From: Clostridia bacterium
Lineage (GTDB): Bacteria > Bacillota > Clostridia > Lachnospirales > Anaerotignaceae
Length of the DNA: 64,000 bases
Reading direction: 5' to 3'
NCBI GenBank assembly: GCA_022651385.1
Contig: JALCQR010000001.1
Span: 186,001-250,000 of the forward strand
Below are positions 20,402 through 33,234 of this stretch, piece by piece. Below the pieces are notes generated by a model. That model made no database searches, was not told the DNA's origin, and saw only the letters and a program-made list of their open reading frames with translations. The position numbers were made by a program, and so were the translations under genes. The stretch's first letter is position 1; each line of letters begins with the position of its first letter.

Positions 20402-20417
20402 TTATTATTCGTCCCAA
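20402..20417. repeat. attL core (16-bp direct repeat)
   Basis: TTATTATTCGTCCCAA is identical to 33219-33234, which is the last 16 bp of yebC on the minus strand. This is the copy left by site-specific integration; host sequence is to the left and the island to the right. Confidence 0.85.
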
Positions 20418-20483
20418 GTCACGTTGTTTTTGATGTATATTGTTCATAAATTTTTTAATTTTTTGGGGTTTTAATAAACTGGC

Positions 20484-20500
20484 AGTACGTTTTTAGTACG
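20484..20500. repeat. Left arm-type integrase repeat
   Basis: AGTACGTTTTTAGTACG occurs here, 66 bp inside attL, and again in the same orientation at 33146-33162, 56 bp inside attR. Each copy contains two AGTACG half-sites. Placement next to the integrase gene and at both ends suits arm-binding sites of a tyrosine recombinase. Confidence 0.65.
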
Positions 20501-20501
20501 C

Positions 20502-21563
20502 TTATTTATTGAAAATATCCTCTAATTTTTCGCATACGGTACTTTGTTTATTAGGGTATAAATGAGCATATGTTTCAAGTGTTGTTTTTATATTCTCATG
20601 CCCTAAACGGTCAGCAACGATTAAAGGCTGAAAGCCAAGCTCTATCAATAATGAGGCATGGGAATGTCTAAGGTCATGCAATCTTATTTGTTTAACGCCT
20701 GCTTTTTGAGCATATTTATTTAAGTTTACTCTTAACGCTGGACGGCTGACTGTGATTAGCCGGTCTGATGGTTTGCAATCATATAACTGTGACGAATACT
20801 CTTTTATTTCATTGCAAAGGAACGAGGGTATTTCAACTATTCGTTTACTCTTTTTTGTTTTTGGCGTTAGTATTAATTCTTTATTGTGAAGTTTAGCGTA
20901 ATTTTTATTAATTGATATAGTTTTGGATTTTAAATCTATGTCACCAACAGTAAGGGCAAGCAATTCACCAGAACGCATGCCGGACCAAAACAATATATCA
21001 TAAGCAACTCTATATTCCATAGGTTTAACAGCATTTATAAACTGCTTATACTCGTCAAGTGTCCAGAACTGTATATCAGATTTTGTTTTGCCTTTAATGC
21101 CTTCATAAAGTTTACAAGGATTTGAGGACAGATTATAATACTTCACAGCAAAGTTAAATACACATGAAATTTGACCATTAACCTTTTTTAAATACAGTGT
21201 ACTGTAATCTTTATTATCCTTAAGGAGCTTATTGTTAAACTGCCTTAAGGTATTAGGTGTTATAGAGTTTATAGGCATTTCTCCGATTTCCGGCAGTATT
21301 CGTTGATTTAGTACAGTCTCTTTTACGTAGAATGATGTTGGCTTTAGCTTGGTTTTGCAGTCATCAAGGTATAATTTAGCCATGCTCTCAAATGTCATGT
21401 CGGGAGATCCACTGTGTTGCTTTATAAATTCCTTTTCATATTCTGCTGCTTCTCTCTTTAATTTAAAGCCTTCTTTTTTCTTACGCTTATTATTTCCCTG
21501 CCAGTCTTTATAGTAAAAAGAGCAGTACCATGTATTACGTGTTTCGTCTTTATAAACAGGCAT
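20502..21563 (-). CDS. int: Tyrosine recombinase / phage-type integrase
   Basis: A 353-residue integrase. The N-terminal AP2-like arm-binding domain is at residues 1-45 (W-Y-C-S-F-Y-Y-K-D, then K-K-K-E-G-F-K). A SAM-like core-binding domain spans about 55-155. The catalytic domain has the R in S-G-M-R-S-G-E-L-L-A-L, the H-x-x-R box in L-H-D-L-R-H-S-H-A, the L-G-H motif and the terminal tyrosine in E-T-Y-A-H-L-Y. All five core residues appear present, so the enzyme should be active. The gene is at the extreme left end, reading outward, next to the attachment core and the arm repeat. AAAGGAGG precedes the ATG. Confidence 0.93.
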   Translation of the reverse strand: MPVYKDETRNTWYCSFYYKDWQGNNKRKKKEGFKLKREAAEYEKEFIKQHSGSPDMTFESMAKLYLDDCKTKLKPTSFYVKETVLNQRILPEIGEMPINSITPNTLRQFNNKLLKDNKDYSTLYLKKVNGQISCVFNFAVKYYNLSSNPCKLYEGIKGKTKSDIQFWTLDEYKQFINAVKPMEYRVAYDILFWSGMRSGELLALTVGDIDLKSKTISINKNYAKLHNKELILTPKTKKSKRIVEIPSFLCNEIKEYSSQLYDCKPSDRLITVSRPALRVNLNKYAQKAGVKQIRLHDLRHSHASLLIELGFQPLIVADRLGHENIKTTLETYAHLYPNKQSTVCEKLEDIFNK

Positions 21564-21583
21564 AAAATAAGCCTCCTTTACAA

Positions 21584-21649
21584 TTTAGGTATAGTAAATA
21601 AGGCGGTCTTATGCTATAATTTTAATAAGTTTAGGTATAGCTTGACCGC
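21584..21649. promoter_or_regulatory. Repeated and inverted sites in the int upstream region
   Basis: The 11-bp word TTTAGGTATAG occurs at 21584-21594 and 21630-21640. GCGGTC (21604-21609) and GACCGC (21644-21649) form an inverted pair around the same stretch. The position between int and the secreted-protein gene suggests binding sites for the excisionase or a repressor of int. Confidence 0.4.
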
Positions 21650-21690
21650 TATATGTTTTCCTCTCTTGTTGGCGCAGGAGGGGAGTTTTT

Positions 21691-22224
21691 TTATCTATTT
21701 TCTATTTTACTATAACATTCAGCAGCCTGAGAACCGCCTGCCGCTTCATATGCTTTTATAAATTCGTCCTCTGAGTTAGATAAATAATTTATTGTAGCGT
21801 TTTCATCACCTTTTATTTTAACAGAATACGCACTATCAAAGTAATTTTTACATGTTGTAAGGTTGCCATACACTGTTTTCAATGTATTTATTTCATCAAT
21901 GGTATATACTCCTGATGTATTTTCGATTTCGGTAACGTATTTAGTAATTCTATTATAGATTGAGTCGCATGTGTCTTTATCATAAGATAAAGTGCTGGTA
22001 TCGCAACTGAAAAAACTTCCTGCATACATTGAGTCAGCGTAATGGTCGGTCAAATTTTCACATTTGTTGTATACAAGCATTAATTTCGCGTTTTTCTTGT
22101 AAAAAGTTTCATCGTTAGTAGTATCTTGCGTTAGGTAAACTGGCTGCTCTTGAGCGAACACATGAATAGCAGGCGTAAAACATAGAGCAATACTTAACCC
22201 TAAAACTAAAATTTTCTTTTTCAT
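21691..22224 (-). CDS. Secreted protein of unknown function carried by the island
   Basis: A 177-residue protein with a clear signal peptide (M-K-K-K-I-L-V-L-G-L-S-I-A-L-C-F, cleavage near A-x-A/F-A-Q at about residues 24-25). The mature part is Asp/Thr/Tyr-rich, has four to five cysteines (D-K-C-E-N-style spacing) and is probably helical; no family is recognised. The start is ATG 22224 behind GGAGGG; the longer frame upstream lacks a site. It lies between int and the repressor on the minus strand, where satellites and prophages often carry lysogenic-conversion genes. Confidence 0.6.
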   Translation of the reverse strand: MKKKILVLGLSIALCFTPAIHVFAQEQPVYLTQDTTNDETFYKKNAKLMLVYNKCENLTDHYADSMYAGSFFSCDTSTLSYDKDTCDSIYNRITKYVTEIENTSGVYTIDEINTLKTVYGNLTTCKNYFDSAYSVKIKGDENATINYLSNSEDEFIKAYEAAGGSQAAECYSKIENR

Positions 22225-22364
22225 ATATATCCCTCCATAAAATGTGATACAATAGTTATAAAGAGTTACATGCTCTTTAAATTCTGCTTGCAGCTTCGGT
22301 ATTGACGGTACCGGAGCTATTTTCATATACTCAGATATGCTTTTGTTTTACTCCATACTTTATT

Positions 22365-22570
22365 TAAACGCGTGGGCTCTCGCCCACACGTTTTACATCA
22401 TCACCATTCGCCATTGAGGGTGAAAAGATTACTCTTCATCAATGACGAGCAAAATTATTAGCATTCGTCATGAAAGACGAACGAACTAAGGCTATGCTTG
22501 ACATAGGGTGTATTTTATTTTTTATTTCATGTCCCACGTTAGTTACTAACCACCATTTGGGGGTGAGTAA
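22365..22570 (+). other. Hairpin array, copy 1 (candidate structured RNA/DNA element)
   Basis: This is most of the 350-bp gap between the secreted-protein gene and the repressor. Successive hairpins are GTGGGC-TCTC-GCCCAC (22372-22387), TTCGTC-ATGAAA-GACGAA (22464-22481), CTATG-CTTGA-CATAG (22492-22506), GTTAG-TTA-CTAAC (22538-22550) and CACC with GGTG (22551-22565). The layout and several words (CACACGTT, TCATG loop, AAGG-TATGC, ATT-GGGGGT) recur in copy 2 at 29018-29207. No ORF is present. Confidence 0.45.
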
Positions 22571-22574
22571 AGTG

Positions 22575-23150
22575 TTAAAATGGCAAATCATCACTATTAG
22601 GGTTTATATCTTCAGATGGTTTGGGATCCGTTTCTTCTTTTTTGTCTTTTGTTATTTTAAAATTATATTTTTTTAATGTTTTTTCAATCCATAAGTCATA
22701 TATGTCACTATCAATAATTTCTTCTTTTAGTGAAGTATTCATTTTATCCCAATCTTTTAAAATCTTTTCCATTGTTTGATTTTGAAACGTAATTCCGCTG
22801 TAATCTATGAATGAATCATGTGAATATTCGTCATAACGCTGAATGCCAATGTAAAATTCTAATTCTGGATTTGATTCGAGTAAAATTAATATTCTTACAA
22901 CATCACTATAGGTTACAATTTTTTTACTGACATTTTTTTCATTGCTAAGACCGCAGAGCCAGTCTAAAGAAACATTATATTTTTTTGATATATTCATTAT
23001 TATATCTAAAGAAGGGTTTTTTGTAGCATTTTCATAAGCAGATATGGTTGCAGGTGTACTTTGAACAGATGATGAAAAAGCTTTTTGTGTCATTCCAAGT
23101 TCTTCTCTCAATTCTTTTAACCGTTTTGAAAATTCAATTCTATTATCCAT
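22575..23150 (-). CDS. XRE-family repressor (CI-like)
   Basis: A 191-residue protein. The N-terminal helix-turn-helix of the XRE/Cro-CI family is at about residues 6-60 (L-R-E-E-L-G-M-T-Q-K-A-F-S, S-T-P-A-T-I-S-A-Y-E-N, P-S-L-D-I-I-M-N-I-S-K). The ~120-residue C-terminal domain is of unknown type and acidic at the end; no Ser-Lys LexA-type autoprotease motif is visible, so induction may work by binding a partner protein, as with satellite Stl repressors. The start is ATG 23150 behind AGAGAGG. It is divergent from the Cro-like gene across perfect operators, the standard lysogeny switch layout. Confidence 0.85.
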   Translation of the reverse strand: MDNRIEFSKRLKELREELGMTQKAFSSSVQSTPATISAYENATKNPSLDIIMNISKKYNVSLDWLCGLSNEKNVSKKIVTYSDVVRILILLESNPELEFYIGIQRYDEYSHDSFIDYSGITFQNQTMEKILKDWDKMNTSLKEEIIDSDIYDLWIEKTLKKYNFKITKDKKEETDPKPSEDINPNSDDLPF

Positions 23151-23192
23151 TTCATAACCTCTCTTTCGTTCCTTATAAGTTATGATAACACT

Positions 23193-23311
23193 ATAATAGA
23201 ACAAATACTACCATAAAGTCAATACAACACAATAATATATTTTACGTTAAAATAAAGTATTGACAAATATAGTATAGTAGAATATACTATATTTAAGTAG
23301 AAAAAACTACT
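23193..23311. promoter_or_regulatory. Divergent promoters with overlapping operators (genetic switch)
   Basis: The minus-strand promoter reads TTGACT (23222-23217), an 18-bp spacer and TATTAT (23198-23193). The plus-strand promoter has TTGACA (23260-23265), a 17-bp spacer and TATACT (23283-23288). A perfect 9-6-9 dyad, TATAGTATA/TATACTATA (23268-23291), covers the plus -10, and AGTAG-AAAAAA-CTACT (23296-23311) covers its start point. These are good operator candidates for the adjacent repressor. Confidence 0.8.
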
Positions 23312-23337
23312 ATATACTTACACAAGAAGGTGAGGAA

Positions 23338-23532
23338 ATGAGAATTGACCCAGCAAAACTTGCTTATGAACTTGTTAAAAATGATTTAACACTTAAAGCA
23401 CTATCAGCGAAAAGTGGTGTGTCTCGTCCGACTCTTTGCTACATAAAAGGAGGGAAACGCTGTAGTGATACAACAGGTATCAAGATAGCTAATGCACTTG
23501 ATGTTGACATCAAAGATTTATTAGAAGATTAA
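23338..23532 (+). CDS. Cro-like XRE helix-turn-helix protein
   Basis: A 64-residue protein that is nearly all one XRE domain: L-A-Y-E-L-V-K-N-D-L-T-L-K-A-L-S-A-K-S-G-V-S, then the recognition helix R-P-T-L-C-Y-I-K-G-G, then I-A-N-A-L-D-V-D-I-K-D-L. It is the first gene of the rightward transcript, 27 bp after the operator dyads and behind GAAGGTGAGG. By position it is the counter-repressor, or the first activator of the lytic/excision arm. Confidence 0.85.
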   Translation: MRIDPAKLAYELVKNDLTLKALSAKSGVSRPTLCYIKGGKRCSDTTGIKIANALDVDIKDLLED

Positions 23533-23625
23533 AAGTTACTCGTTAGGTAAGCAACTAAGCAAAGATTGAGTGTATATACACTTGATGTGCAACAGACGCA
23601 CAACAATTTGAAAGGAGGCTTAAAC

Positions 23626-23805
23626 ATGGAGAGTGTGAGGTATTATTTTTGCAAAGATGTTATGCAACTCTTAGACGTATCTGAAAGTAAAGCATATGGC
23701 ATAATACGTCAACTTAATAAAGAGCTGAGAAATACCGGCTTTTTAACAATTGCAGGAAGAGTACCTATAAAGTACTTTGAAAAGCGCTTTAACATAGAAA
23801 GGTAG
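23626..23805 (+). CDS. Small DNA-binding protein, excisionase-like
   Basis: A 59-residue protein from ATG 23626 (behind AAAGGAGG; an upstream in-frame ATG lacks a site). The start Y-Y-F-C-K-D-V-M-Q-L-L-D-V-S-E-S-K-A-Y-G-I-I-R-Q-L-N is a winged-helix/MerR-like recognition helix of the type seen in phage excisionases and ICEBs1-type Xis proteins, and R-V-P-I-K-Y-F-E-K-R closes the wing. By family and position it would bend DNA at attL/attR and direct Int to excision. Confidence 0.65.
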   Translation: MESVRYYFCKDVMQLLDVSESKAYGIIRQLNKELRNTGFLTIAGRVPIKYFEKRFNIER

Positions 23806-23814
23806 GCGGTATAA

Positions 23815-23895
23815 ATGGGAATTACATATTTAGGCTTAGGAATTATCCCCGGCTTTGCGTTTGGAATATTGTTCCTATGCTTATATCTGAGGTGA
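23815..23895 (+). CDS. 26-residue hydrophobic peptide (predicted micro-membrane protein)
   Basis: ATG 23815 follows AGGCGG. The peptide is almost one continuous transmembrane helix (about residues 4-24) with a single terminal Arg. The stop is 4 bp before the GTG of the replication ATPase, and the Shine-Dalgarno site of the ATPase (AGGTGATAAGG) lies across this stop, so translational coupling is likely. The tight spacing on both sides argues that it is a real gene. Function unknown. Confidence 0.5.
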   Translation: MGITYLGLGIIPGFAFGILFLCLYLR

Positions 23896-23899
23896 TAAG

Positions 23900-25417
23900 G
23901 TGAAAATTGATAACGAGGTGTTTTTAGACCTGTTTCGCCGAAAACCAAAAGAGGGAAACAAGTATATCATCATTGTGAGTGACTCAATACTCCATGAGCG
24001 TTTATGGAGCATAGGATATTACTCAATGCTTATATCGGACGCAGAGTCAGCAGAGAACGCAAAGAGTCTCATATACGATGCCTTAATAAAAAAGGGCCTA
24101 AATGTAAAAGATTATGTGTTTTTAGCTGCTTATATGAAAGACAGAGCAATAAATGATGAGCTTAGCAATGCTTTTGGAAGCTATGGAATAAAATACGATG
24201 TACAAGCCTACAAAATATTTTATAAAAAGAATTTCGCATTAGCTGATGATAAAACAATCAAGCAATGGATTAATGTTTACATCAAGAATATTGAAAACAA
24301 TAATGAAGCTACAGTTTTTGAGTCCCCGATAAATGCAGTAGACTTGCAAAGTGAAAATATTAAACCAATAGAATGGATAGTGTATAGACTCATTACAAGC
24401 GGTGAAAGCCTATTGACCGCGCCGTCTAAGTTCGGCAAGTCTTGGTTTGGCATGGACTTAGCCATATCTGTGGCAGAAGGCACACCATTCTTAGGAAGGG
24501 TAACACAAACCGCACCAGTTTTGTATTTGGCCTTAGAAGACAGTAAAAGACGATTGCAAAGGCGTATGAATAAACTGTTAGCAGGGAAAAAGGCACCTGA
24601 AAACTTGTATTTTATGACAAAGGCGCCAACGCTTGATGATGGCTTAATTGAAACATTGGAGCAGGAAATAAAGTCAAAAAACCTAAAATTGATTATTATT
24701 GACACATTCCAAAAAGTAAGAGGCATCTCAAATGGCAAAAATCCATATGCAACAGATTATGCTGATATGGGTAAACTCAAGGACCTCGCAGACAAACATG
24801 ATATTGCTATCTTATTAATTCATCATAACAGAAAAATGAAAGATGATGATGATGTATTTAATCAAATTTCAGGAACTAACGGCATAATGGGTGCAGCAGA
24901 CACAATAATTGTGCTGACAAAAAACAAAAGGGATGATAAAGAAATAAAAATGCACCTTACGGGGCGCGATGTTGAACAAAATGTTTTTGTTCTTAATTTT
25001 GATAAGGAAACGTGCAGGTTTAAGCTTATTGGCTCTGAGCAAACGCTTGAGGAACAAGAGGCAGATTTTTATTACAGACATAATGAAATTGTCATAACAA
25101 TAAAAGCCCTGTTGTCTGAGCATTGCGAAGGCTGGCAAGGAACAGCAAGGCAACTTCGTACAGAGATAATAAAAAAGTGCAAATATTTTATAGATGAAAG
25201 AGCTGTTGGAAAACGTCTAAGAGCATTAGCTCAAGATTTATACGAAAAGGATAACATCATATATGTTGAACCAAGTAGTACAAGAAACAAATTACATAAA
25301 TTTTCATATGCTCCGGTTGTAGATATATTAAATACAAACGATACACATGATACAAACGATACACATGATACAAACGATACACATGATACAAACGATACAC
25401 ATGATATTGTATCATAA
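23900..25417 (+). CDS. RecA-fold (RepA/AAA_25-type) replication ATPase of the island
   Basis: A 505-residue protein. The N-terminal ~150 residues are unassigned. The ATPase core has Walker A A-P-S-K-F-G-K-S at about residues 174-181, Walker B L-I-I-I-D-T-F and the I-L-L-I-H-H-N-R-K sensor, as in hexameric RepA-type plasmid and phage helicases. The C-terminal ~100 residues resemble a winged-helix domain. The last ~25 residues are a Thr-Asn-Asp-Thr-His-Asp repeat encoded by the 18-bp iterons. The GTG start is coupled to the preceding micro-ORF. By position it is the replication initiator/helicase of the element; no primase domain is visible. Confidence 0.8.
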   Translation: MKIDNEVFLDLFRRKPKEGNKYIIIVSDSILHERLWSIGYYSMLISDAESAENAKSLIYDALIKKGLNVKDYVFLAAYMKDRAINDELSNAFGSYGIKYDVQAYKIFYKKNFALADDKTIKQWINVYIKNIENNNEATVFESPINAVDLQSENIKPIEWIVYRLITSGESLLTAPSKFGKSWFGMDLAISVAEGTPFLGRVTQTAPVLYLALEDSKRRLQRRMNKLLAGKKAPENLYFMTKAPTLDDGLIETLEQEIKSKNLKLIIIDTFQKVRGISNGKNPYATDYADMGKLKDLADKHDIAILLIHHNRKMKDDDDVFNQISGTNGIMGAADTIIVLTKNKRDDKEIKMHLTGRDVEQNVFVLNFDKETCRFKLIGSEQTLEEQEADFYYRHNEIVITIKALLSEHCEGWQGTARQLRTEIIKKCKYFIDERAVGKRLRALAQDLYEKDNIIYVEPSSTRNKLHKFSYAPVVDILNTNDTHDTNDTHDTNDTHDTNDTHDIVS

Positions 25418-25510
25418 AGTATCATGTTGAGCATTTGAAAATGATACACTTGAAAGCCTTGATTTATAAAGGCATGAGTATAAAAGTATCGTTTGTATCG
25501 TTTGTATCAT
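25333..25510. repeat. Iteron-like repeats, candidate replication origin
   Basis: Four exact tandem copies of the 18-mer TACAAACGATACACATGA (25333-25404) lie inside the 3' end of the ATPase gene. They are followed by GTATCATAAAGTATCATG (about 25409-25426) and then, inverted, two GTATCGTTT units ending GTATCAT (25486-25510). The shared word is GATAC/GTATC. Iterons within or next to the initiator gene are the rule in plasmid, phage and satellite origins. Confidence 0.7.
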
Positions 25511-25539
25511 CACATACAAGAAATGGAGGGAAAATTCAG

Positions 25540-25731
25540 GTGATAAAAACAATAGCATTACCAGTCAGTAACAATATTGCTGTCCTTGCGCAAAATGAAG
25601 ATGTGCTAAAGGACGACATATTAACCGTATATATTAAAGAACGAGTAAATCCTGAAAATATAATTTCAGTAAATGCGGTTTCAAACAATAACACAATATT
25701 TATAGTTATTACTTATGAGTGCAGGGAGTGA
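25540..25731 (+). CDS. 63-residue island protein, unknown
   Basis: Start GTG 25540 behind GGAGGG. The frame runs open upstream through the iterons without a ribosome binding site, so I take the short form. It is a small soluble protein with a beta-strand-rich pattern and no recognised domain. It is the first gene after the iterons and overlaps nothing. The next gene's ATG is 4 bp past its stop, so it belongs to the island's rightward operon. Confidence 0.55.
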   Translation: MIKTIALPVSNNIAVLAQNEDVLKDDILTVYIKERVNPENIISVNAVSNNNTIFIVITYECRE

Positions 25732-25735
25732 CGAT

Positions 25736-25933
25736 ATGAGCAATCAGGAAAAAGACATATTTCGGTCTGTGTATAACTTCTTTGCGAAGTATAACCACAA
25801 ACTTAATGATGATGAGTGGCCGGCGTTTGTTACGGACATGCAGGCCGTAAACGAAGAACATAACTGTTATCTATGTGCAAGACTATTGGGTGTTATATTC
25901 TGCTACATAGAGAAAAAGAATTATGACCGATAA
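25736..25933 (+). CDS. 65-residue island protein, unknown
   Basis: ATG 25736 follows GGGAGTG. It encodes a mostly helical, acidic protein with two cysteines in a C-Y-L-C-A-R pattern near residue 45. I do not recognise the family; small proteins of this kind are frequent downstream of replication genes in clostridial phages. It is tightly packed between neighbours in the same operon. Confidence 0.55.
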   Translation: MSNQEKDIFRSVYNFFAKYNHKLNDDEWPAFVTDMQAVNEEHNCYLCARLLGVIFCYIEKKNYDR

Positions 25934-25949
25934 AGGAGGACTAAAAACA

Positions 25950-26204
25950 ATGAGTGAAGTAATTGACTTTAATGCTGATGATTTAAAGATTAATGTATCA
26001 GCGGGCAGAACACAAAAGTTTTTTGATACGGCAAGGGCTGTAAGTAAGTATTTGAAAGGATTAAGCATATCCGCAGAGGAAAACGACAGGCTTGTTGAAC
26101 TAATGATACAGCACACAAACGCCGCAGAGGAAAGCGGTTTCAACTTTGGGTTAAAATTAGCCACTGATATTTTAAAAAGCAGGCTTGACCAGAAAGAAGG
26201 CTAA
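25950..26204 (+). CDS. 84-residue island protein, tandem paralogue A
   Basis: Start ATG 25950 behind AAAGGAGGA. The C-terminal half (L-V-E-L-M-I-Q-H-T-N-A-A-E-E-S-G-F-N-F-G) aligns without gaps to that of the next gene (L-I-D-L-I-S-N-Y-V-T-A-V-E-K-N-G-A-K-F-G). The pair therefore arose by tandem duplication and then diverged. Predicted all-helical. Function unknown. Confidence 0.6.
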   Translation: MSEVIDFNADDLKINVSAGRTQKFFDTARAVSKYLKGLSISAEENDRLVELMIQHTNAAEESGFNFGLKLATDILKSRLDQKEG

Positions 26205-26208
26205 AACA

Positions 26209-26424
26209 ATGGCAGTAATTGAACGTGATATTGAGTTTTATAAAACCCGTCATATTTTGTACGACTACATTTTAAAGCTTTTACTGACGGTTGAGCAGAA
26301 AAATAAACTCATTGATTTAATCAGCAATTATGTAACGGCAGTTGAGAAAAACGGTGCAAAATTTGGCGTTGATATGGTTATAGAGATTATGGAAAGTCAG
26401 GAGGAGAAAAACAATGAAATGTGA
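26209..26424 (+). CDS. 71-residue island protein, tandem paralogue B
   Basis: ATG 26209 is 4 bp after the preceding stop. It shares the E-x-x-x-x-L-I/V-x-L ... A-x-E-x-x-G-x-x-F-G helical module with its upstream neighbour, but its N-terminus differs (E-R-D-I-E-F-Y-K-T-R-H-I-L-Y). It overlaps the following gene by 11 bp. Function unknown. Confidence 0.6.
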   Translation: MAVIERDIEFYKTRHILYDYILKLLLTVEQKNKLIDLISNYVTAVEKNGAKFGVDMVIEIMESQEEKNNEM

Positions 26425-26710
26425 TAATGAAATTGACGACAAAATAGCTGATTTATACTGTGCAGCTGCAAAATGCAGACAGGTACTTGCGGATTTATCC
26501 GTTATGCTTGATGAGGAGGATGACAAGTATTTAGTATGGACAAGGGACCGTAAGAGTACATATGCCGATATAGCCCTTGATTATGCTGTACAGCTTGACA
26601 AAGGACTTGATGATATCTGCAAAAATTCTGAGATAATAAAAAACGCCCCTGCACCTACCACAGCACAAGGGGCAACAAAAACCACTTCAAGTTTAACACA
26701 GGAGGAATAA
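26414..26710 (+). CDS. 98-residue island protein, unknown
   Basis: ATG 26414 lies inside the end of the previous gene, behind GGAGGAG. It is helical, acidic and Cys-containing at the N-terminus (Y-C-A-A-A-K-C-R-Q), with a low-complexity Ala/Pro/Thr/Ser tail. Proteins with this L-D-E-E-D-D-K-Y length and pattern are common in Firmicutes prophages, but I cannot name a function. Confidence 0.55.
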   Translation: MKCDNEIDDKIADLYCAAAKCRQVLADLSVMLDEEDDKYLVWTRDRKSTYADIALDYAVQLDKGLDDICKNSEIIKNAPAPTTAQGATKTTSSLTQEE

Positions 26711-26711
26711 A

Positions 26712-26882
26712 ATGTCTATAAAAATTCATGCTTCAAGTGAAAAAGCTGAGGACCTAAAAGAGTTTTTAAGAATAAATAAGCCTATAATCAGAGCAGGAGC
26801 CAAAGTTAAACAGAAACATGACGGAAAGTTTTATCATGCTTGGATACTCTCAAAAAGCCGCGATAAAGGCGATAAAAGGTAA
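26712..26882 (+). CDS. 56-residue basic island protein
   Basis: ATG 26712 follows GGAGG directly at the end of the previous gene. The product begins M-S-I-K-I-H-A-S-S-E-K-A-E-D and ends in a Lys/Arg-rich tail, with K-Q-K-H-D-G-K-F-Y-H-A-W in the middle. Small size, strong basic charge and operon position suggest nucleic-acid binding, but no family is recognised. Confidence 0.6.
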   Translation: MSIKIHASSEKAEDLKEFLRINKPIIRAGAKVKQKHDGKFYHAWILSKSRDKGDKR

Positions 26883-26934
26883 TTAAAATCATACATAAAA
26901 GTGCTTGCAAGCATTGAGTTTATGGGCTTTTTGC

Positions 26935-26963
26935 TTGCATACCCCTACTATTTATGGTATAAT
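26935..26963 (+). promoter_or_regulatory. Consensus promoter for a candidate small RNA
   Basis: TTGCAT (26935-26940) and TATAAT (26958-26963) are separated by exactly 17 bp, in the 305-bp gap 26883-27187. A terminator follows about 85 nt after the predicted start, and no ORF with a ribosome binding site lies between. Confidence 0.7.
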
Positions 26964-26969
26964 TAAATT

Positions 26970-27060
26970 ACAAATAAATAGTGTAGGTAGTACCGCAATA
27001 GAAATATTGTAAGTCTTTAATGACGTGGGAAAAGGTTAAGAGCCGGCCCACGTCTTTTTT
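26970..27060 (+). ncRNA. Candidate ~90-nt small RNA
   Basis: It is predicted from promoter plus terminator. Hairpin 1 is CAATA-GAAA-TATTG (26996-27009) with a GNRA tetraloop. Hairpin 2 is the terminator GACGTGGG (27022-27029) with CCCACGTC (27047-27054), then six Ts. The terminator loop contains a second small CCGG. An attenuated leader for the 203-aa gene at 27188 is the alternative reading. Confidence 0.55.
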
Positions 27061-27187
27061 ATTTGTAGAAGCTCCTTTTAAAATTTATACATCCGGCCCC
27101 GAGCATGGCCTAAAAAGGCTCCCTCTGTAGAATAAAAGTAATTAACCGTAAATATAGATTTAAAATTTGTGAACTGGAGGAAAGACA

Positions 27188-27799
27188 ATGGATATAAAAT
27201 CAAGACTTAATCAATATGCAGACGAATACGAACGTTTTAAGAAAAGTAAGGAAAATGAAATTAAAAAGATATATGAACAGTATCAGCCGCAAGCAGCAAA
27301 TGAAAAGTTTTCAGCGATAAAAAAAGAAGTCGAGGCAAAACGAATTGAATGCGTATCAGCCGTATCAAACGAATTGAAAAGTATTGCAAACGATTTTGAA
27401 AAACAGTATTTAAAAAGGCCGGACAACTACGACATTAAGCTTAATACTACAATAAATCTTCTTACATCTATCGGCAAGGACGCAACCGAAAGCGACTTAA
27501 AAGAATGGCTTGCACCGTTTAAGTACGATTACAAGACTATGCTTACATTCAGTAAAATAATTAAATCTTCGTCAGCAGGATTTACGCTTTCCGGATATAA
27601 CCAAATACCTGAAATTATAAAGAAGCTTAAAAATGCTGCTGAGAAAACAGAAAACTTTTTCTCAGGTCCGGCTATGCCGCCGGGAACGGCCTTAAATGGT
27701 AATGTTCAGCCTGATTATTCAAGTTTAAACTTATTGTTTTTCTGTGATGCAATGACTGACAAAATGGAAAGCGTAAAAGAATTTGTTGATAATTTTTAA
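27188..27799 (+). CDS. 203-residue helical island protein, unknown
   Basis: ATG 27188 follows GGAGG. The N-terminal ~75 residues are strongly charged and probably coiled-coil (E-Y-E-R-F-K-K-S-K-E-N-E-I-K-K-I-Y). The rest is helical, with a short Gly/Pro loop (G-P-A-M-P-P-G-T-A-L) near residue 160. There is no signal peptide and no membrane segment. It precedes the tail LysM protein by 23 bp, so it may be a partner of that protein (chaperone or scaffold-like), but this is inference from position only. Confidence 0.6.
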   Translation: MDIKSRLNQYADEYERFKKSKENEIKKIYEQYQPQAANEKFSAIKKEVEAKRIECVSAVSNELKSIANDFEKQYLKRPDNYDIKLNTTINLLTSIGKDATESDLKEWLAPFKYDYKTMLTFSKIIKSSSAGFTLSGYNQIPEIIKKLKNAAEKTENFFSGPAMPPGTALNGNVQPDYSSLNLLFFCDAMTDKMESVKEFVDNF

Positions 27800-27822
27800 T
27801 AATTACTTAGGGGGAAACAACA

Positions 27823-28485
27823 TTGTATAAATTTTATCTTGACGGCTTTGTGCTGCCGATAACTCCGGAAGAAGTAACAATAAAGATAGGAAATAACAAC
27901 AAGACAATTGACCTTATAAATGGTGGGGAAATTAATATCTTAAAAGCTCCGGGACTTACAGAAATAAGTTTCGACTTTGAAATACCATCTGTAAAGTATC
28001 CTTATAGGAACAAAGAGTCTGATGACATTACAGCTCAGAATTATATAAATATACTTAAAGAGCTTAAAGTAAATCGCCTGTATTTTCCTTTTAAAATTTT
28101 ACGTGAAGAAGGTAGTATTACACTTCCGGAATCAGATGATATGAAAGTATCACTTGAAGAATATACCTTAAAAGAGTCAGCAAAAAATGGCACTGATATA
28201 ACCGCTTCGGTAAAACTTAAGGAATACAGAGAGTACAATACAAAAACTCAAACTGCTACGGTAGTTGGTACAACGTCAGACGGTAAAAAGATAGTGCGGA
28301 TTACCAAGAAAAGACCGTCAAACAGGGTAGCCCCGGATACATACACAGTAAAAAAAGGTGATACCTTATGGACTATCTGCAAGTCATGGTTTGACGACGG
28401 CTCAAAGTATAAGGAGATTGCAAAGCTTAACGGTATTTCAAATCCGAACAAAATATCAGTAGGACAGGTTATTAGGCTTAGATAA
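27823..28485 (+). CDS. Phage tail LysM protein, XkdP type (orphan)
   Basis: A 220-residue protein. The N-terminus (F-V-L-P-I-T-P-E-E-V-T-I-K-I-G-N-N-N-K-T-I-D-L, then G-G-E-I-N-I-L-K-A-P-G-L-T-E-I-S-F-D-F) is the signature of the contractile-tail baseplate protein XkdP of PBSX-like phages. A LysM domain occupies the last ~50 residues (Y-T-V-K-K-G-D-T-L-W-T-I-C ... I-S-V-G-Q-V-I-R-L). The start is TTG 27823 behind GGGG. In phages it sits between tape measure and XkdQ; here no other tail gene is present. It is either the remnant of a tail module or a part used to modify a helper phage's tail. Confidence 0.8.
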   Translation: MYKFYLDGFVLPITPEEVTIKIGNNNKTIDLINGGEINILKAPGLTEISFDFEIPSVKYPYRNKESDDITAQNYINILKELKVNRLYFPFKILREEGSITLPESDDMKVSLEEYTLKESAKNGTDITASVKLKEYREYNTKTQTATVVGTTSDGKKIVRITKKRPSNRVAPDTYTVKKGDTLWTICKSWFDDGSKYKEIAKLNGISNPNKISVGQVIRLR

Positions 28486-28494
28486 TTTGGATTT

Positions 28495-28526
28495 AAAGGG
28501 TGTAGGTTAAATCTACACCCTTTTTT
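28495..28526 (+). terminator. Terminator after the tail LysM gene
   Basis: AAAGGGTGTAG (28495-28505) pairs with CTACACCCTTT over a 7-nt loop, with a T-run to 28526. Confidence 0.85.
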
Positions 28527-28543
28527 ATTAAGAAGGTGAGAGT

Positions 28544-28822
28544 ATGAAAAATATAGACAAGTTACTTATTGAAGCGGCTAAGATAATACCGGCATTAAAA
28601 TTCAATGTTGGCTTTGTATCGTTTGAAAATGGTAAGTGGATGTCAGTAACCAGATTGCAAAATGGAAGCCGTGAACAGGACTTCATAAGCTATCACAGCA
28701 CAAAAGACGAGGCAATAAACGAACTTAAAGAACTGGCTGTAAAATACGGTAACACAGACCCTGCAATAATTATTGACGATATACCGGGAGTGATAAGTTA
28801 TGAGCCGTCGCTTAACATTTAA
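28544..28822 (+). CDS. 92-residue island protein, unknown
   Basis: ATG 28544 follows AAGGTGAG. The product is a mixed alpha/beta cytosolic protein with no motif I know. Its end overlaps the start of the next gene by 23 bp in another frame, typical of dense phage-type operons. No function proposed. Confidence 0.55.
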   Translation: MKNIDKLLIEAAKIIPALKFNVGFVSFENGKWMSVTRLQNGSREQDFISYHSTKDEAINELKELAVKYGNTDPAIIIDDIPGVISYEPSLNI

Positions 28823-29018
28823 AGTAAAAACACCTACAGATATTAAAAGAACACTCTCAAGGGTTATGAACATGGTTGCTAATGATGAAATGGACACTAA
28901 GACGGCCAACACAATTATTTTGGGCTGTAATGCTATATTAAGCAGCATACGAACGGACGAGCAGCAGCAGAAAATAATAGAGCTTGAGAAGATATTAAAT
29001 ACAATACGACCATTGTAA
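28800..29018 (+). CDS. 72-residue phage-type protein, unknown
   Basis: ATG 28800 follows GGGAGTGATAAG. It begins M-S-R-R-L-T-F-K-V-K-T-P-T-D-I-K-R-T-L-S and continues as two helices. Short proteins of this pattern (K-T-P-x-D-I-K-R-T-L-S-R-V-x-N) are frequent in Firmicutes prophages and integrative elements, usually near a recombinase or replication region. No biochemical role is known to me. Its stop abuts hairpin array copy 2. Confidence 0.65.
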   Translation: MSRRLTFKVKTPTDIKRTLSRVMNMVANDEMDTKTANTIILGCNAILSSIRTDEQQQKIIELEKILNTIRPL

Positions 29019-29207
29019 ACGTGTGCGTGGGAGCCACACGTTGGAACGTAGTAACGAGATTACCACGTGTCAGCGAGGCAGGCACGTTAAAGGTATCGTT
29101 CATGGCGATAACAAGGTATGCGTTAGGCGCAGACGTTAAAACGTGCTTATCTGGCAAACACGTTAAAAGTTGATAATCCGGTTACCAGCTATTGGGGGTT
29201 TGAGTTT
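29018..29207 (+). other. Hairpin array, copy 2 (candidate structured RNA/DNA element)
   Basis: The hairpins are AACGTGTG (29018-29025) with CACACGTT (29035-29042), TATCG-TTCATGG-CGATA (29094-29110) and TGCG-TTAGG-CGCA (29119-29131). The word CACGTT or GACGTTAAA recurs at about 29037, 29083, 29133 and 29160 as a spacer between modules. Compared with copy 1, hairpin order and loop words are shared while stem sequences differ. It ends at the GGGGG that serves as the ribosome binding site of the sigma factor gene. Confidence 0.5.
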
Positions 29208-29987
29208 ATGACAAATGAGGAACTGGCTGAAAGAGTACAAGCCGGAGACAATGAGCTTTTGCCTCTGCTATGGGAACATGTGTCAAAATTAGTTAGGCTC
29301 AAAGTTAATGAGTACATGACATCAAGGGCCGAGACATGTCAGCGTTCAGGGGTTACATTTGATGATTTATTCAATGAAGGCTATATTGCGTTTACCGAAG
29401 CTATAAGCGCATACAAGCCAACCCAAGGGTACAAATTCACGTCATACATCAATTATCCTCTGCTTAATAGATGTAATGAAGCTTTGGGACTTAGGACATC
29501 GGCAGGAAAGCATAATATACTTAATAATTCCGTAAGTCTTGATATGCCTATTGGTGATGATGAAAACGGCGCAACTCTTGAGGATATCGTTCCGGACGAC
29601 GACAATAGTTTTTTGGAAGCCGATGAGAAAATATATAATGTAGGTTTACATGATGATTTGGAAAAATGTTTTAAGGAATTACCGGAGAATGAAGAAAGGG
29701 TTATCCGACTTAGATATTATAATAACGCTACATATGAAGCTATAGGGAATGAAACAGGAAATAGCAGACAGAATGCAAGACAGTTGGAACATAAGGCGTT
29801 GAGGAAGCTCAGGAAGGGAAGGAGTATAGCAAGACTTAGAGCATACAGAGACGATATAATATCAACGCATGCTTATAAGAGCAGCTTTGAACGGTGGAAA
29901 AACAGCGGTTACAGCTCAACGGAGTATACGGCTCTTAGGCTGTGTGGATACAGTAATAAGGAATTGATAAATGCTATAGATCTATAA
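29208..29987 (+). CDS. Phage/island-encoded sigma-70 family protein
   Basis: A 259-residue protein. Region 2 is recognisable (D-L-F-N-E-G-Y-I-A-F-T-E-A-I, then Y-K-F-T-S-Y-I-N-Y-P-L), and region 4 near residues 155-200 has a helix-turn-helix (Y-E-A-I-G-N-E-T-G-N-S-R-Q-N-A-R-Q-L-E). It then carries a ~55-residue basic C-terminal extension not found in housekeeping factors. Such proteins occur in clostridial prophages, where they are thought to direct late or element-specific transcription. GGGGG precedes the ATG. By inference it could switch on the island's right arm. Confidence 0.82.
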   Translation: MTNEELAERVQAGDNELLPLLWEHVSKLVRLKVNEYMTSRAETCQRSGVTFDDLFNEGYIAFTEAISAYKPTQGYKFTSYINYPLLNRCNEALGLRTSAGKHNILNNSVSLDMPIGDDENGATLEDIVPDDDNSFLEADEKIYNVGLHDDLEKCFKELPENEERVIRLRYYNNATYEAIGNETGNSRQNARQLEHKALRKLRKGRSIARLRAYRDDIISTHAYKSSFERWKNSGYSSTEYTALRLCGYSNKELINAIDL

Positions 29988-30000
29988 ATAAAATAGTTTT

Positions 30001-30034
30001 AGCCTACAGATTTCTATGTAGGCCTTATTTTTTT
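30001..30034 (+). terminator. Terminator of the sigma gene
   Basis: GCCTACA (30002-30008) pairs with TGTAGGC (30017-30023), followed by CTTATTTTTTT. Confidence 0.85.
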
Positions 30035-30141
30035 GTAGGAATTATTTATAAACTCAAAATGCCATATTTAATAGAATAATTGGTTATTATGTCAATGGAA
30101 TAATTTAGGTTATGGTGGTATTCTCATAAAGAAATAGATAG

Positions 30142-30930
30142 GTGACAGTAATGATTTGGGATGTTAAATCAAAGAGTGGATTGAATATTATGATTGAAAA
30201 TTTTTTAGGAACTATAGTTATATGTGCTTTCTTAATTTGTGTTTCTGTATCACTAATTTATTATTTGTCAATTAGGTTTGGGATAAAAAGCCATGAGGAC
30301 GATGCAATTGATTTTATGGATTATGCAATTAGCATGATTATTTTTGTATTTTTATCAGCAATAGTTCTATTAAATTTTGTATATTTTTATATTGTAAATA
30401 TTAAAGATTCTGCTTTGTATAATAGCGGATTGCTTTTCATTTTTTTAGAAGTAGCATCAGGACTTATAATAAAGTGGCTCTATTTAGTTATAACAAAAGT
30501 TTTCTGTGTTTTTTTTAAAAATACAAGCATCTATAAGCTTAAAAAATATGAAATAACGTGGACATGGATTTTTATTTCGTTAGGACTTATGGTTTTCTAC
30601 CTTATTGAACATGGAATTGTATATGCATTTTCTTACTTAGCTATTATATTAAGTTATTTTATTTGGATCGAATTATCTATTAGTTCTCTAAAAGGCAAAC
30701 TGAAAGAACTTAAATCTTTAACAATATCTTACTGGAGTGTGATTTCATTTATAATTATTTCTGGATTTACAACAATTAGGTATAATTCTAGATTAGGATT
30801 TGTAGCTTCAACAGCAGGAATGGTTTTAGGTTTAATACTTAGTATTTTTTGCATAGATGCTTTAAACAAAAAGTTAAAAAATAAGTATCAAACAGGTACT
30901 AACTCCAAAAACAAAATTTCAAAAACATAG
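30142..30930 (+). CDS. Polytopic membrane protein, unknown
   Basis: A protein of about 262 residues with seven or so hydrophobic helices (roughly 20-45, 62-85, 95-120, 140-158, 163-180, 198-215, 225-245) separated by short basic loops. The start is uncertain: GTG 30142, ATG 30151 or ATG 30190 are possible, none with a strong site. No family or catalytic motif is seen. The very AT-rich codon use and isolated position between two terminator-like hairpins suggest a separate acquisition. Given its position next to a defence pair it could be exclusion or defence cargo, but nothing in the sequence proves that. Confidence 0.6.
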   Translation: MTVMIWDVKSKSGLNIMIENFLGTIVICAFLICVSVSLIYYLSIRFGIKSHEDDAIDFMDYAISMIIFVFLSAIVLLNFVYFYIVNIKDSALYNSGLLFIFLEVASGLIIKWLYLVITKVFCVFFKNTSIYKLKKYEITWTWIFISLGLMVFYLIEHGIVYAFSYLAIILSYFIWIELSISSLKGKLKELKSLTISYWSVISFIIISGFTTIRYNSRLGFVASTAGMVLGLILSIFCIDALNKKLKNKYQTGTNSKNKISKT

Positions 30931-31179
30931 AATTTATACGTATGTGAGGCTCGAGAACGTGAAAAATTCTGTAAAAATCATCCTTCTATATAAGATTTTT
31001 ACTGTCAGACATGCTTTTATGAACAATATACGTTTAAACGGTCTGTTTAATGTCTAAAGTGAAATAAAACAGTGTGAAAAGGCTTAATTTCAGGCCTTTC
31101 AGACTTCGAATAGAGCGTGACATTCTGAATTTGCAAGAAGAACGAGATACTAAAGTATCAGAGAGGGTGGTGGGTTGTT
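30931..31179. other. Intergenic region upstream of the Kiwa-like pair
   Basis: It holds a perfect 9-bp hairpin GTAAAAATC/GATTTTTAC (30971-31002), probably the terminator of the membrane-protein gene, and a small dyad GATACT-AA-AGTATC near 31147-31160, about 20 bp before the start of kwaA. No small ORF with a ribosome binding site is apparent. Confidence 0.4.
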
Positions 31180-31824
31180 GTGCAAACTGAGAATTTAAAT
31201 TTAAAGAAAAGTCTTGTCATGCAATCCTTTGCACCTCTTTTCTTATTGTTGACTATCAAGCATTTAGACTTTAAATTATATTGGAATTTGGTTTGTAAAT
31301 TTATCAGTACCTTTGTCAAAAGGGGAACAGTAGCATTTTCAATCGCATTAAACCATTCTTCATTTGGCGGTTTCGTAGTTTCGTTTATGGGCATCTTCTG
31401 GTTGTTGCTCACGATAGCTATTGCGTTAGGCTTTAATGGAATGCAAAAAGCTGGATTCAAAGCGGTTGGTGAAAAGATAATAATCGAGGAAGAGCCTAAT
31501 GATAGTAGTGCAACATTCTTAGTGACCTATGTGCTGCCTCTTCTGACAGATGATGTGGAATCAGTTAGGGGACTGATAGTATTCTTAACAATACTTATAA
31601 TGGTTATCATGCTCTTAACTAGTTCTAATACTTTTTATCAGAATCCAGTGCTTGCAGCAATGAAGTATAGAACATTTTCGTTTAAATTTTTGAATCCCGC
31701 AAACGACATTGCTCATTCAGATAGAGTATATATAGGAATTACGCATGGAGTGCCGATAGTAGAAGATACTGTAATAAAACGGAAATACATCTCGGATGGT
31801 GTTTTTGTTATTTACAATGACTAA
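31180..31824 (+). CDS. kwaA: Kiwa anti-phage system membrane protein, KwaA-like
   Basis: A 214-residue membrane protein. Hydrophobic helices lie at about residues 11-28, 62-85 and 131-147, with a further hydrophobic stretch near 111-121; the C-terminal ~60 residues are soluble and beta-rich. The start (S-L-V-M-Q-S-F-A-P-L-F-L-L-L-T-I-K-H) is the pattern of KwaA proteins. In Kiwa, KwaA is the membrane component that senses phage attachment or infection and KwaB is the effector partner. GTG 31180 follows AGAGGGTGG. The identification leans on the strict two-gene pairing with the DUF4868 gene 19 bp downstream and on the membrane topology; sequence similarity alone would be weaker. Confidence 0.75.
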   Translation: MQTENLNLKKSLVMQSFAPLFLLLTIKHLDFKLYWNLVCKFISTFVKRGTVAFSIALNHSSFGGFVVSFMGIFWLLLTIAIALGFNGMQKAGFKAVGEKIIIEEEPNDSSATFLVTYVLPLLTDDVESVRGLIVFLTILIMVIMLLTSSNTFYQNPVLAAMKYRTFSFKFLNPANDIAHSDRVYIGITHGVPIVEDTVIKRKYISDGVFVIYND

Positions 31825-31843
31825 ATAAAGAGAGGAAGAAAAA

Positions 31844-32824
31844 ATGCCTGAAGGAACCTTAAATGAAAAACAAATTAGAGCGAAACTTAAAGATTATTAT
31901 GATAATTCTATACAATGCGGGTTGGAGGCATTTGTGGTCAAGAAAGATTCTCCGAAACTAAAAAGAATGTCACTATCCGAAGACACTAATGGGCAGGGAA
32001 AGAATTTTCGAACAATTCTAAAGGAGATGTTCTTTAATATTCTTGGCGAACAGTATTTATCGCAAGAAGCAGAATATGCAGATGGACGTCAATTGGCAGA
32101 TAACCAACATAAATACTTGATTTTTGAACAGGGAGAAAATTTTCAGCCATTTACATATTTTGATGATGAGAGTGAAATCGGAGAATTCATCTTAGAGGAT
32201 TTGACCGATGCTTCTGGTCTTGCATTCCGGTTAAGGAAAGGTGAAAATACTATCTGGTTGTATCAGCATCTTTGGAGCATCATGGTGCCGAATAAGAAGA
32301 AAACAAATATTATGGCACGACTGATGCAGTTTGAAAATCAGGTTGTGTTTTCGGAACAAAATGAAAGTTTACTTACAATAGCAAAAAAGGTAGATGTTTT
32401 AATTATGGATAACTGCCTAATTACGAGCAATATAATCCTTTTGCAGAAGTATTTTGGATTCCAAGATTACATTTACCAATCTGCACAACAGGCTGTTCAA
32501 AGTATTGTTCAGAAGAATCTTGTTGTGAATACTGAGAAATTGACTGAATATATCAGCCGGGGAAAATCGAAATACGCCAAGAAAATGATGCGTATTGGCT
32601 CATCAAAAGTATTGAATTTGACACAAGAACAGCTAATAGATAAAATAAATTCATTAGCAAGGTGGCGGGGAAAATTCAATGTCAATCAAGATACGAATCA
32701 AATCACATTGAATACATATGGCGAAGTAGAAAGCTTGATTGATCTGTTTGATGAGAGGTATACTCGTTCCGATGTAACAAACACAGAATATGATACTAAT
32801 GTAAAAACAGTAGCTCAACCATAG
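31844..32824 (+). CDS. kwaB: Kiwa anti-phage system protein KwaB-like (DUF4868)
   Basis: A 326-residue soluble protein. The central-to-C-terminal region (V-D-V-L-I-M-D-N-C-L-I-T-S-N-I-I-L-L-Q-K-Y-F-G-F, about residues 183-206) has the D-x-x-x-I-x-N ... F-x-x-x-F pattern of DUF4868, the KwaB domain. A basic patch (S-R-G-K-S-K-Y-A-K-K-M-M-R-I) follows near residue 250. KwaB is the cytosolic effector of Kiwa, reported to bind DNA and to limit phage replication and transcription. ATG 31844 is behind GAGAGGAAG, and a strong terminator follows, so kwaAB is a self-contained operon at the attR end, where mobile elements commonly carry defence cargo. Confidence 0.8.
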   Translation: MPEGTLNEKQIRAKLKDYYDNSIQCGLEAFVVKKDSPKLKRMSLSEDTNGQGKNFRTILKEMFFNILGEQYLSQEAEYADGRQLADNQHKYLIFEQGENFQPFTYFDDESEIGEFILEDLTDASGLAFRLRKGENTIWLYQHLWSIMVPNKKKTNIMARLMQFENQVVFSEQNESLLTIAKKVDVLIMDNCLITSNIILLQKYFGFQDYIYQSAQQAVQSIVQKNLVVNTEKLTEYISRGKSKYAKKMMRIGSSKVLNLTQEQLIDKINSLARWRGKFNVNQDTNQITLNTYGEVESLIDLFDERYTRSDVTNTEYDTNVKTVAQP

Positions 32825-32846
32825 GGAAAAGAATAAATGTATAAAT

Positions 32847-32897
32847 AGCCCTACTAATAGAACAGCTATATATTCTCTATTAGGAGGGCTTTATTTT
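32847..32897 (+). terminator. kwaAB terminator
   Basis: AGCCCT-CTAATAGA (from 32847) pairs with TCTATTAG-AGGGCT (to 32890), followed by TTTATTTT. The stem is about 14 bp. Confidence 0.9.
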
Positions 32898-32904
32898 ATG
32901 AAAA

Positions 32905-32985
32905 TTATTCGTTAATATCGACACTGACACCAGACTTAAATTCAACGGTGGATTTGTTCTCGTAGACAGAGACGCTTTTAATTAG
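32905..32985 (-). pseudogene. Possible 3' remnant of a serine recombinase gene
   Basis: On the minus strand a 26-codon piece ends in a normal TAA at 32905. It reads L-I-K-S-V-S-V-Y-E-N-K-S, then V-E-F-K-S-G-V-S-V-D-I-N-E, and is cut off upstream by a stop. The V-Y-E ... V-E-F-K-S-G pattern is like the extreme C-terminus of large serine recombinases of clostridial transposons. The match is short and from memory. The rest of 32898-33145 shows nothing more than AT-rich sequence. Confidence 0.35.
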
Positions 32986-33145
32986 TTATTAAGTTTTATT
33001 TGAGAAAAAAATTTAAATGCTTTGAAATCAACAAAATTCAAGCTAAAATAATCATGATGAAAATAAAAGTTTTAGAACAAAAAAATTAAAATCAGAGAGT
33101 TTAAATAAAATATAACTGTCAAAGCTATTAATTTATGAATAAAAT

Positions 33146-33162
33146 AGTACGTTTTTAGTACG
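33146..33162. repeat. Right arm-type integrase repeat
   Basis: AGTACGTTTTTAGTACG is identical to the copy at 20484-20500 and in the same orientation, 56 bp inside attR. Confidence 0.65.
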
Positions 33163-33218
33163 ATATAAAATAAAAAAAGCGGCAAAACCTCATAAATAAA
33201 GGCTTTCCGCTGTTTTTA

Positions 33219-33234
33219 TTATTATTCGTCCCAA
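33219..33234. repeat. attR core within the yebC 3' end
   Basis: TTATTATTCGTCCCAA; read on the minus strand it encodes Trp-Asp-Glu-stop plus a second TAA, the end of YebC. It is identical to attL at 20402-20417. Integration therefore leaves yebC intact and displaces only its downstream DNA. Confidence 0.87.

Follow-up and report, generated by a model that had tools for sequence, protein, structure and literature searches.

Introduction

In the 64,000-nucleotide stretch of clostridial DNA analysed here (the window), short repeats run through the last codons of an ATPase gene and continue, in the opposite orientation, past its stop codon, which raises the question of whether such an array acts as DNA, as peptide or as both, and of what it does. 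A preliminary description, made from the sequence alone, had read it as an origin of the iteron type that shares its DNA with the coding end of a replication ATPase, and comparison across relatives appears to support this well. The array is probably a SaPI/PICI-like origin with two opposed iteron sets, which is used by a RecA-fold initiator helicase and overlaps the gene of that helicase.

Anatomy of the repeat array

The 18-bp direct repeats first noted in the coding tail of the ATPase are real, with 4.2 copies and 100% matches at 25332–25406 (TRF), and the unit can be refined to 9 bp. Eight forward units, GATACA(AAC/CAT), occupy 25331–25402, the first with one mismatch, so that the start of the array, previously placed at 25333, is corrected to 25331/25332. 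The units are codons in the final part of the ORF at 23900–25417, and their translation, NTNDTHDTNDTHDTNDTHDTNDTHD-IVS, forms its C-terminal end. As the four 18-bp copies are identical, the last expansion appears to be recent.

Inverted units had also been reported after the stop codon (25415–25417). These are present directly past it (GTATCAT, 25419–25425) and further down, where three units with 9-bp spacing (GTATCG, GTATCG and GTATCA) occupy 25486–25510 and are also found as GTATCGTTT with a period of 9 (2.6 copies, 100% matches, 25486–25508; TRF). One more inverted unit, GTATCAT at 25409–25415, shares the first base of the stop codon. The spacer up to the distal inverted block (25426–25485), which contains a lone forward unit (ATGATAC, 25441–25447), is the candidate melting region. 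The 78-bp gap between the blocks paired at 9 bp (25408–25485) is 72% AT against 66% in the surrounding 15.5 kb, slightly AT-richer than the flanking DNA.

With at most one mismatch, GATACANNNGATACA has 11 matches in the window, nine of them within 25331–25508 (0.33 expected), and a count of 11 was reached in 0 of 100 shuffles. Of 391 genomes sampled from the class, one, the window's own, had four exactly spaced GATACA units. The arms 25347–25371 and 25486–25510 are inverted with respect to each other (25 nt, 92% complementary), and the fold of 25325–25530, calculated with DNA parameters, has an energy of −32.5 kcal/mol against a shuffle mean of −15.8 (z −5.8), equalled by 0 of 200 shuffles. 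No intrinsic terminator was found at the array; terminator-like sites number two in 3.6 kb against 1.9 expected, and both lie elsewhere.

Domains and predicted fold of the ATPase

The gene 5' of the array (23900–25417, forward strand, GTG start as listed) encodes a 505-residue AAA_25/RSF1010-RepA-like helicase, whose AAA_25 domain (3.6e-31) scores 108.7 bits against a curated cut-off of 27. RepA of RSF1010 (PDB 1g8y; 4.2e-5) was the sole PDB sequence match at E-values up to 0.1. The protein thus appears to belong to the AAA_25/RepA-like hexameric helicases and would be expected to form hexamers.

An AlphaFold2 model of residues 140–505, built from 38 alignment rows, has a mean pLDDT of 90.5; an earlier model from five rows (pLDDT 45) was discarded. 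The RecA-like core (model residues 1–245) matches DnaB and RepA chains with Z of about 22–24 over about 200–234 residues. Residues 396–470 (25085–25309, forward strand) are modelled as a helix, a strand, two helices and two strands, which suggests a C-terminal winged helix; this assignment relies on the order of helices and strands in the model because the VIA-align rows span mainly the helicase core (residues 1–245). The repeat-coded tail follows the predicted winged helix and is disordered in the model (pLDDT about 45). No Pfam primase match was found in the ATPase, and the PHROG primase/helicase families cover only its helicase part. The N-terminal parts of three relatives discussed below (L043, L192 and L032) are longer, and look primase-like by eye.

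The probable mobile element that carries the array

The region 20402–33234 (12.8 kb) looks like an integrated mobile element, bounded by 16-bp direct repeats with an integrase beside one end. The left att repeat, TTATTATTCGTCCCAA, lies at 20402–20417, and the right copy (33219–33234) covers the final codons and stop of yebC, whose product is YebC/PmpR (NCBIfam 1e-103). The tyrosine integrase (20502–21563, reverse strand) matches Pfam Phage_integrase (3e-25), Phage_int_SAM_3 (1.3e-16) and Arm-DNA-bind_4 (3.3e-11), as well as PHROG 1 integrase (1.9e-79). A 17-bp direct repeat, AGTACGTTTTTAGTACG, occurs just inside both ends (20484–20500 and 33146–33162), and the two copies are perhaps integrase arm sites.

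Between the integrase and the ATPase are a divergent cI-like repressor (22575–23159, reverse strand; HTH_3 1.8e-15), a Cro-like HTH protein (23338–23532, forward strand; HTH_26 7.8e-7) and an excisionase-like protein (23566–23805, forward strand), which matches PHROG 989 (unknown function, 3.5e-25) and an NCBIfam ICEBs1 excisionase at 4.3e-16, 58 bits being under the cut-off of 100. The remaining genes include small ORFs 3' of the ATPase, a LysM protein and a sigma factor. The LysM protein (27823–28485) resembles phage PHROG 380 (4.5e-56); no other phage structural genes were recognised, and no significant terminase match was found, among the element proteins scanned. KwaA-like (31180–31824; PADLOC KwaA 4.9e-93) and KwaB-like (31844–32824; PADLOC KwaB 3.7e-128) cargo genes, both on the forward strand, form a Kiwa-like anti-phage pair that adjoins the right att repeat and scores under the NCBIfam cut-offs. 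Elsewhere in the window, a 255-bp tandem repeat (1.8 copies at 91%, 51511–51981) lies within the gene of a 953-residue protein.

Survey of related ATPase genes

Relatives of the ATPase were drawn from genomes (one per species), named contigs, a few phage and plasmid records (2 of 334 and 3 of 10, respectively) and viral contigs; the genome searches, run with strict E-value limits, were confined to the loci of the best matches. Each gene end was scored over a span of 120 bases upstream and 230 downstream of the ATPase stop, by counting 7-base windows that recur, with at most one mismatch, 9 or 10 bases further on. This lag count superseded a first motif score, which was stricter and flagged fewer loci. 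Equal spans at other ORF ends of the same loci served as controls, and their 95th percentile in a first set (56 genes, 555 controls) gave the threshold. A second set of 48 viral genes (591 controls) had no overlap with the first; it alone tests a pre-fixed threshold, as the threshold was derived from the first set.

Left out were two copies of the window (L001 and L003), eight loci with ORFs shorter than 300 residues, near-identical loci (20/57) and, from the first set, one further locus (1/57). L211, a 25-residue match, was outside the scoring, and L212 and L224, from the window's own genome, were scored once only. A first protein search of the viral contigs gave 0 relatives. The second set was drawn from the best 80 of 186 relatives, and of 79 new viral loci, three without downstream DNA, two without a stop, 21 duplicates and five matching earlier loci were removed; L225 was omitted for lying on the same contig as L206. 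A search of the viral contigs for the spaced GATACA pattern gave at least 120 stretches; among the matches listed, seven loci showed both orientations by eye and were kept out of the counts.

Nine-bp repeats at the gene ends of relatives

Within the first set, which includes the window, 27 of 56 gene ends exceeded the control 95th percentile (p 1e-18) and 10 exceeded the 99th. At the fixed threshold, 28 of the 48 viral genes passed, compared with 4.4% of their controls (p 8e-15). When only the 230 bases past the stop were counted, the 104 genes had 6.28 windows per end at lag 9, while lags 8 and 10 gave 1.91 and 2.09; in the control ends the figures for lags 9, 8 and 10 were 1.09, 0.50 and 0.75. 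The 9-bp spacing is therefore not due to tail codons, since the excess holds in non-coding DNA alone, and part of the signal is general, as the control ends too show an excess of about twofold over lag 8.

Some arrays extend upstream of the stop. Ten or more lag-9 windows preceded the stop in 13 of the 104 ATPase genes, compared with 0 of the 1146 control ends; for five or more, the counts were 21 of 104 and 22 of 1146. Seventeen of the 55 positives have at least five such windows wholly before the stop, and tail peptides among the relatives include THATNATHATN, VTKVTKV, VTPVTPVTPVT and GDTGDTGDS. At least two inverted copies beyond shuffles were present in 37 of 56 positives (one a near-duplicate). 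Both orientations occur as 9-bp pairs in 38 of 55 positives, with a median gap of 37.5 bp and interleaved orders in six of the 38, and one of the two sets is absent as 9-bp pairs in the other 17. Where the gap is at least 10 bp (29 positives), it is AT-richer than the locus in 25 (60% AT versus 51%; p 1e-5). A similar layout thus seems, from these sequence comparisons, to recur across many related mobile elements and phages.

The repeat motif differs from element to element. Across 31 loci, motif similarity had a partial association of 0.24 with ATPase-domain similarity (0 of 2000 permutations) and of 0.13 with C-terminal-domain similarity (40 of 2000). There is no specific tie of motif to winged helix, as similarity in the ATPase domain tracks the motif at least as much. 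By eye, a GCTAC core appears common to L043, L206 and, in degenerate form, L042, and CGTTC to L192 and L205.

Elements with a related ATPase and no repeats at this place, which the preliminary description had set against its own reading, do exist: 49 of 104 relatives fail the threshold (29 of 56 in the first set and 20 of 48 in the second). Four named close relatives with 45–48% identity were used (L032–L035), L036 having been dropped for its short ORF. L032, L033 and L034 have neither direct nor inverted repeats at the ATPase gene end, and their top-scoring 9-bp windows lie at least 0.6 kb away from the ATPase stop; the lag score of L035 equals the threshold without exceeding it. These cases limit the origin claim and do not overturn it, because the equally close L192 (46–49% identity) has an array that passes. 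The window's own genome has a further ATPase gene (L002), which carries GTGACG in both orientations directly past its stop; its lag score also equals the threshold and does not exceed it.

The best parallel to the window's layout, with another motif, appears to be L043, which comes from another genome and encodes a longer ATPase with 35% identity in the shared part. Eight ATGCTAC units lie in its coding tail, followed past the stop by three inverted, one forward and three inverted units, and its gene order (integrase, repressor, Xis, sigma) resembles that of the window. A leftover second copy of the part encoding the ATPase C terminus (54 bp at 81%, E 5e-10) lies downstream, with repeats of another kind behind it. 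Of 102 loci tested, 4 had the gene end duplicated in the following 2 kb, in L043 and L012 also at the protein level. The leftover ATPase end occupies 5765–5932 in L195 (2709–2876 in L043); a second repeat set lies beyond it, and inspection by eye showed a third, GATTCAGTAC-like one further along. The 200-residue genes upstream of the sigma factors in the window and in L195 show no similarity (BLASTP E 0.59).

Among plasmid homologues, the one on L041, a 214-kb circular record filed as a plasmid, passes the threshold. The small autonomous plasmid pATHE01 of Caldicellulosiruptor bescii also encodes a homologue, but one without a passing array, so that pATHE01 does not provide an example of a replicon with the window's layout. 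Several of the ATPase genes on contig 2 of genome G031, which has four (L004, L016, L021 and L024), and on contig 1 of G029, which has seven (L005, L017, L022, L025, L027, L030 and L031), lie about 11–15 kb from one another, a pattern that would suit elements accumulating next to each other; stops interrupt two of the G029 frames.

Comparison with known origins

The element carries an integrase and an attachment site, as PICIs do, and it shares with SaPI/PICI elements the order of integrase, divergent repressor, xis, initiator and ori, as judged from homologues whose functions are presumed. According to the available excerpts of two studies, SaPI/PICI origins lie directly 3' of rep and consist of two iteron sets around an AT-rich region, the C-terminal domain of the initiator recognises the iterons, and a cloned PICI rep-ori sustained plasmid maintenance (PMC6092414, PMC7581432). 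The window's array likewise lies at the 3' end of the putative initiator gene and has two opposed sets of putative iterons, between which the DNA is only slightly AT-richer than its surroundings, and the helicase has a predicted C-terminal DNA-binding domain. The initiators differ: those of SaPI and SCC elements are, in the excerpts, DUF927 (Cch, SaPIbov1 Rep) or Primase_Cterm/D5 (Cch2, SaPI5 Rep) helicases, whereas that of the window would be a RecA-fold RepA/DnaB-like AAA_25 helicase. Unlike those of SaPI/PICI, the window's iterons extend into the reading frame, one set overlapping the coding end. The element is not classed as a PICI here: no primase was found, and PICIs are further defined by phage-dependent induction and packaging.

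The origin of lambda lies within the gene of its initiator, O, and the initiators of lambda, TP901-1 and Tuc2009 are replisome organisers, not helicases. In all three, as in the window, direct repeats lie within the coding sequence of the known or putative initiator; those of the window specify a C-terminal end modelled as disordered, and inverted units follow beyond the stop. For TP901-1 ORF13 and Tuc2009 Rep2009, the available part of one report places the origin inside the initiator gene and describes its direct repeats as initiator-bound (PMC8965321).

RSF1010 (RepA/RepC/oriV) shares a RepA-like helicase with the window and has an iteron origin, as the window would; there, as excerpted, a separate RepC recognises the iterons (PMC4234260), whereas in the window a predicted winged helix is fused to the helicase. 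ORF904 of pRN1 has a C-terminal winged helix and an origin just 3' of its gene, as the window would, and differs in being a primase/SF3 helicase with a stem-loop, its authors seeing no iteron structure in the portion available (PMC4234260). Skunavirus ATPases are distant matches of the window protein, and GP46 of the Skunavirus phage F13 is an AAA_25/RepA-like protein with proven 5'-3' helicase activity; winged helix, iterons and origin binding go unmentioned for it in the excerpt (PMC8965321). Origins inside initiator genes and the SaPI/PICI-like layout are therefore already known, and what appears to differ here is the type of initiator and the presence of iterons in frame.

Alternative explanations

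Iterons of known plasmids often double as regulatory and origin sites, and the array could be an operator or termination site only, by which the ATPase would control its own or downstream transcription, or an RNA attenuator, with no origin function. The sites do lie between the ATPase gene and the next small ORFs, and the strand can fold (DNA parameters); they are, however, at the far end of the gene, away from its promoter, no intrinsic terminator accompanies them, and the 9-bp phasing and unequal unit numbers fit protein sites better than an RNA stem, which leaves regulation alone an unlikely account. A partition (parS-like) or copy-control site is a very improbable substitute for an origin. 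Plasmid iteron arrays do serve such roles, and the second gene 3' of the ATPase in the relative L039 is annotated ParB, but no ParA/ParB match was found among the scanned proteins of the window's element (some small ORFs lay outside the scan), and across relatives the array is tied to the helicase gene.

The inverted blocks might instead form a hairpin or cruciform that is recognised as a structure in place of iterons, as proposed for pRN1, which, in the part of the source available, needs a 100-nt stem-loop 3' of its initiator gene for replication (PMC4234260). The 25-nt arms, with their complementarity and z of −5.8, suit this idea, yet a bare stem predicts no 9-bp tandem phasing, and the 17 positives without one set as 9-bp pairs and the six interleaved ones fit it poorly; such an origin is quite improbable. 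The large cruciform envisaged in the preliminary description is possible in the window's copy and is apparently not a shared feature, because in relatives the unit numbers are unequal, the two orientations are interleaved or a paired inverted set is missing. That the repeat is retained for its peptide, or is a functionless product of slippage, is hardly probable at all: the four identical 18-bp copies, and the recent expansion they imply, would suit this reading, but the units recur inverted in non-coding DNA, the tails of relatives differ while the 9-bp phasing persists outside coding DNA, and the tail has a pLDDT of about 45. Of the dual role once proposed for the repeats, the DNA side is supported; the peptide looks like a tolerated by-product, since it is disordered in the model and all 16 other positives with an array in the coding tail have a peptide different from the window's.

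A model for initiation and its possible reach

The reading of the array as a SaPI/PICI-like origin builds on its anatomy, the family-wide 9-bp enrichment independent of coding and the turnover of motifs, together with the helicase fold, predicted winged helix and disordered tail of the structural model. Regularly spaced direct repeats lie beside the putative initiator gene, as in iteron-type origins, and the array would serve as the replication origin of the 12.8-kb element. The gene 5' of it would supply a RepA/DnaB-like helicase that forms hexamers and binds DNA through a winged helix of its own. Once the element had excised, the winged helices would bind the 9-bp iterons in two opposite sets, one of eight units in the coding tail and the other of two units next to the stop plus the three of the distal block; this would load two helicase rings face to face across the melting spacer, from which replication would proceed. 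The forward set would have grown into the reading frame in the window's element, and its translation would therefore be a disordered peptide, which has to be tolerated and nothing more.

More tentatively, and with the balance leaning slightly against it, AAA_25/RepA-type helicases with a C-terminal winged helix may make up a large and so far unrecognised family of replication initiators, spread over phages and integrative elements, in which a single protein both unwinds DNA and binds the origin; the 3' end of the gene that encodes it would carry the 9-bp iterons, often within the coding sequence. As specificity domain and origin are contiguous, one crossover could swap them jointly, and the leftover C-terminal ends and extra downstream repeat sets of L043 and L012 would then be relics of such swaps. 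No description of iterons at AAA_25 genes or tails was found in the literature searched, which included few subscription papers and so lends little weight to the absence.

If the origin reading is true, an AAA_25 helicase gene whose stop codon is flanked by opposed repeats phased at 9 bp would point to an origin, a rule applicable to many phages, satellites and integrative elements. The self-loading initiators of SaPI and SCC elements would be joined by a RecA-fold helicase, odd tripeptide-repeat tails would be explained as translated DNA sites, and the array would be a clear example of two demands placed on a single sequence.
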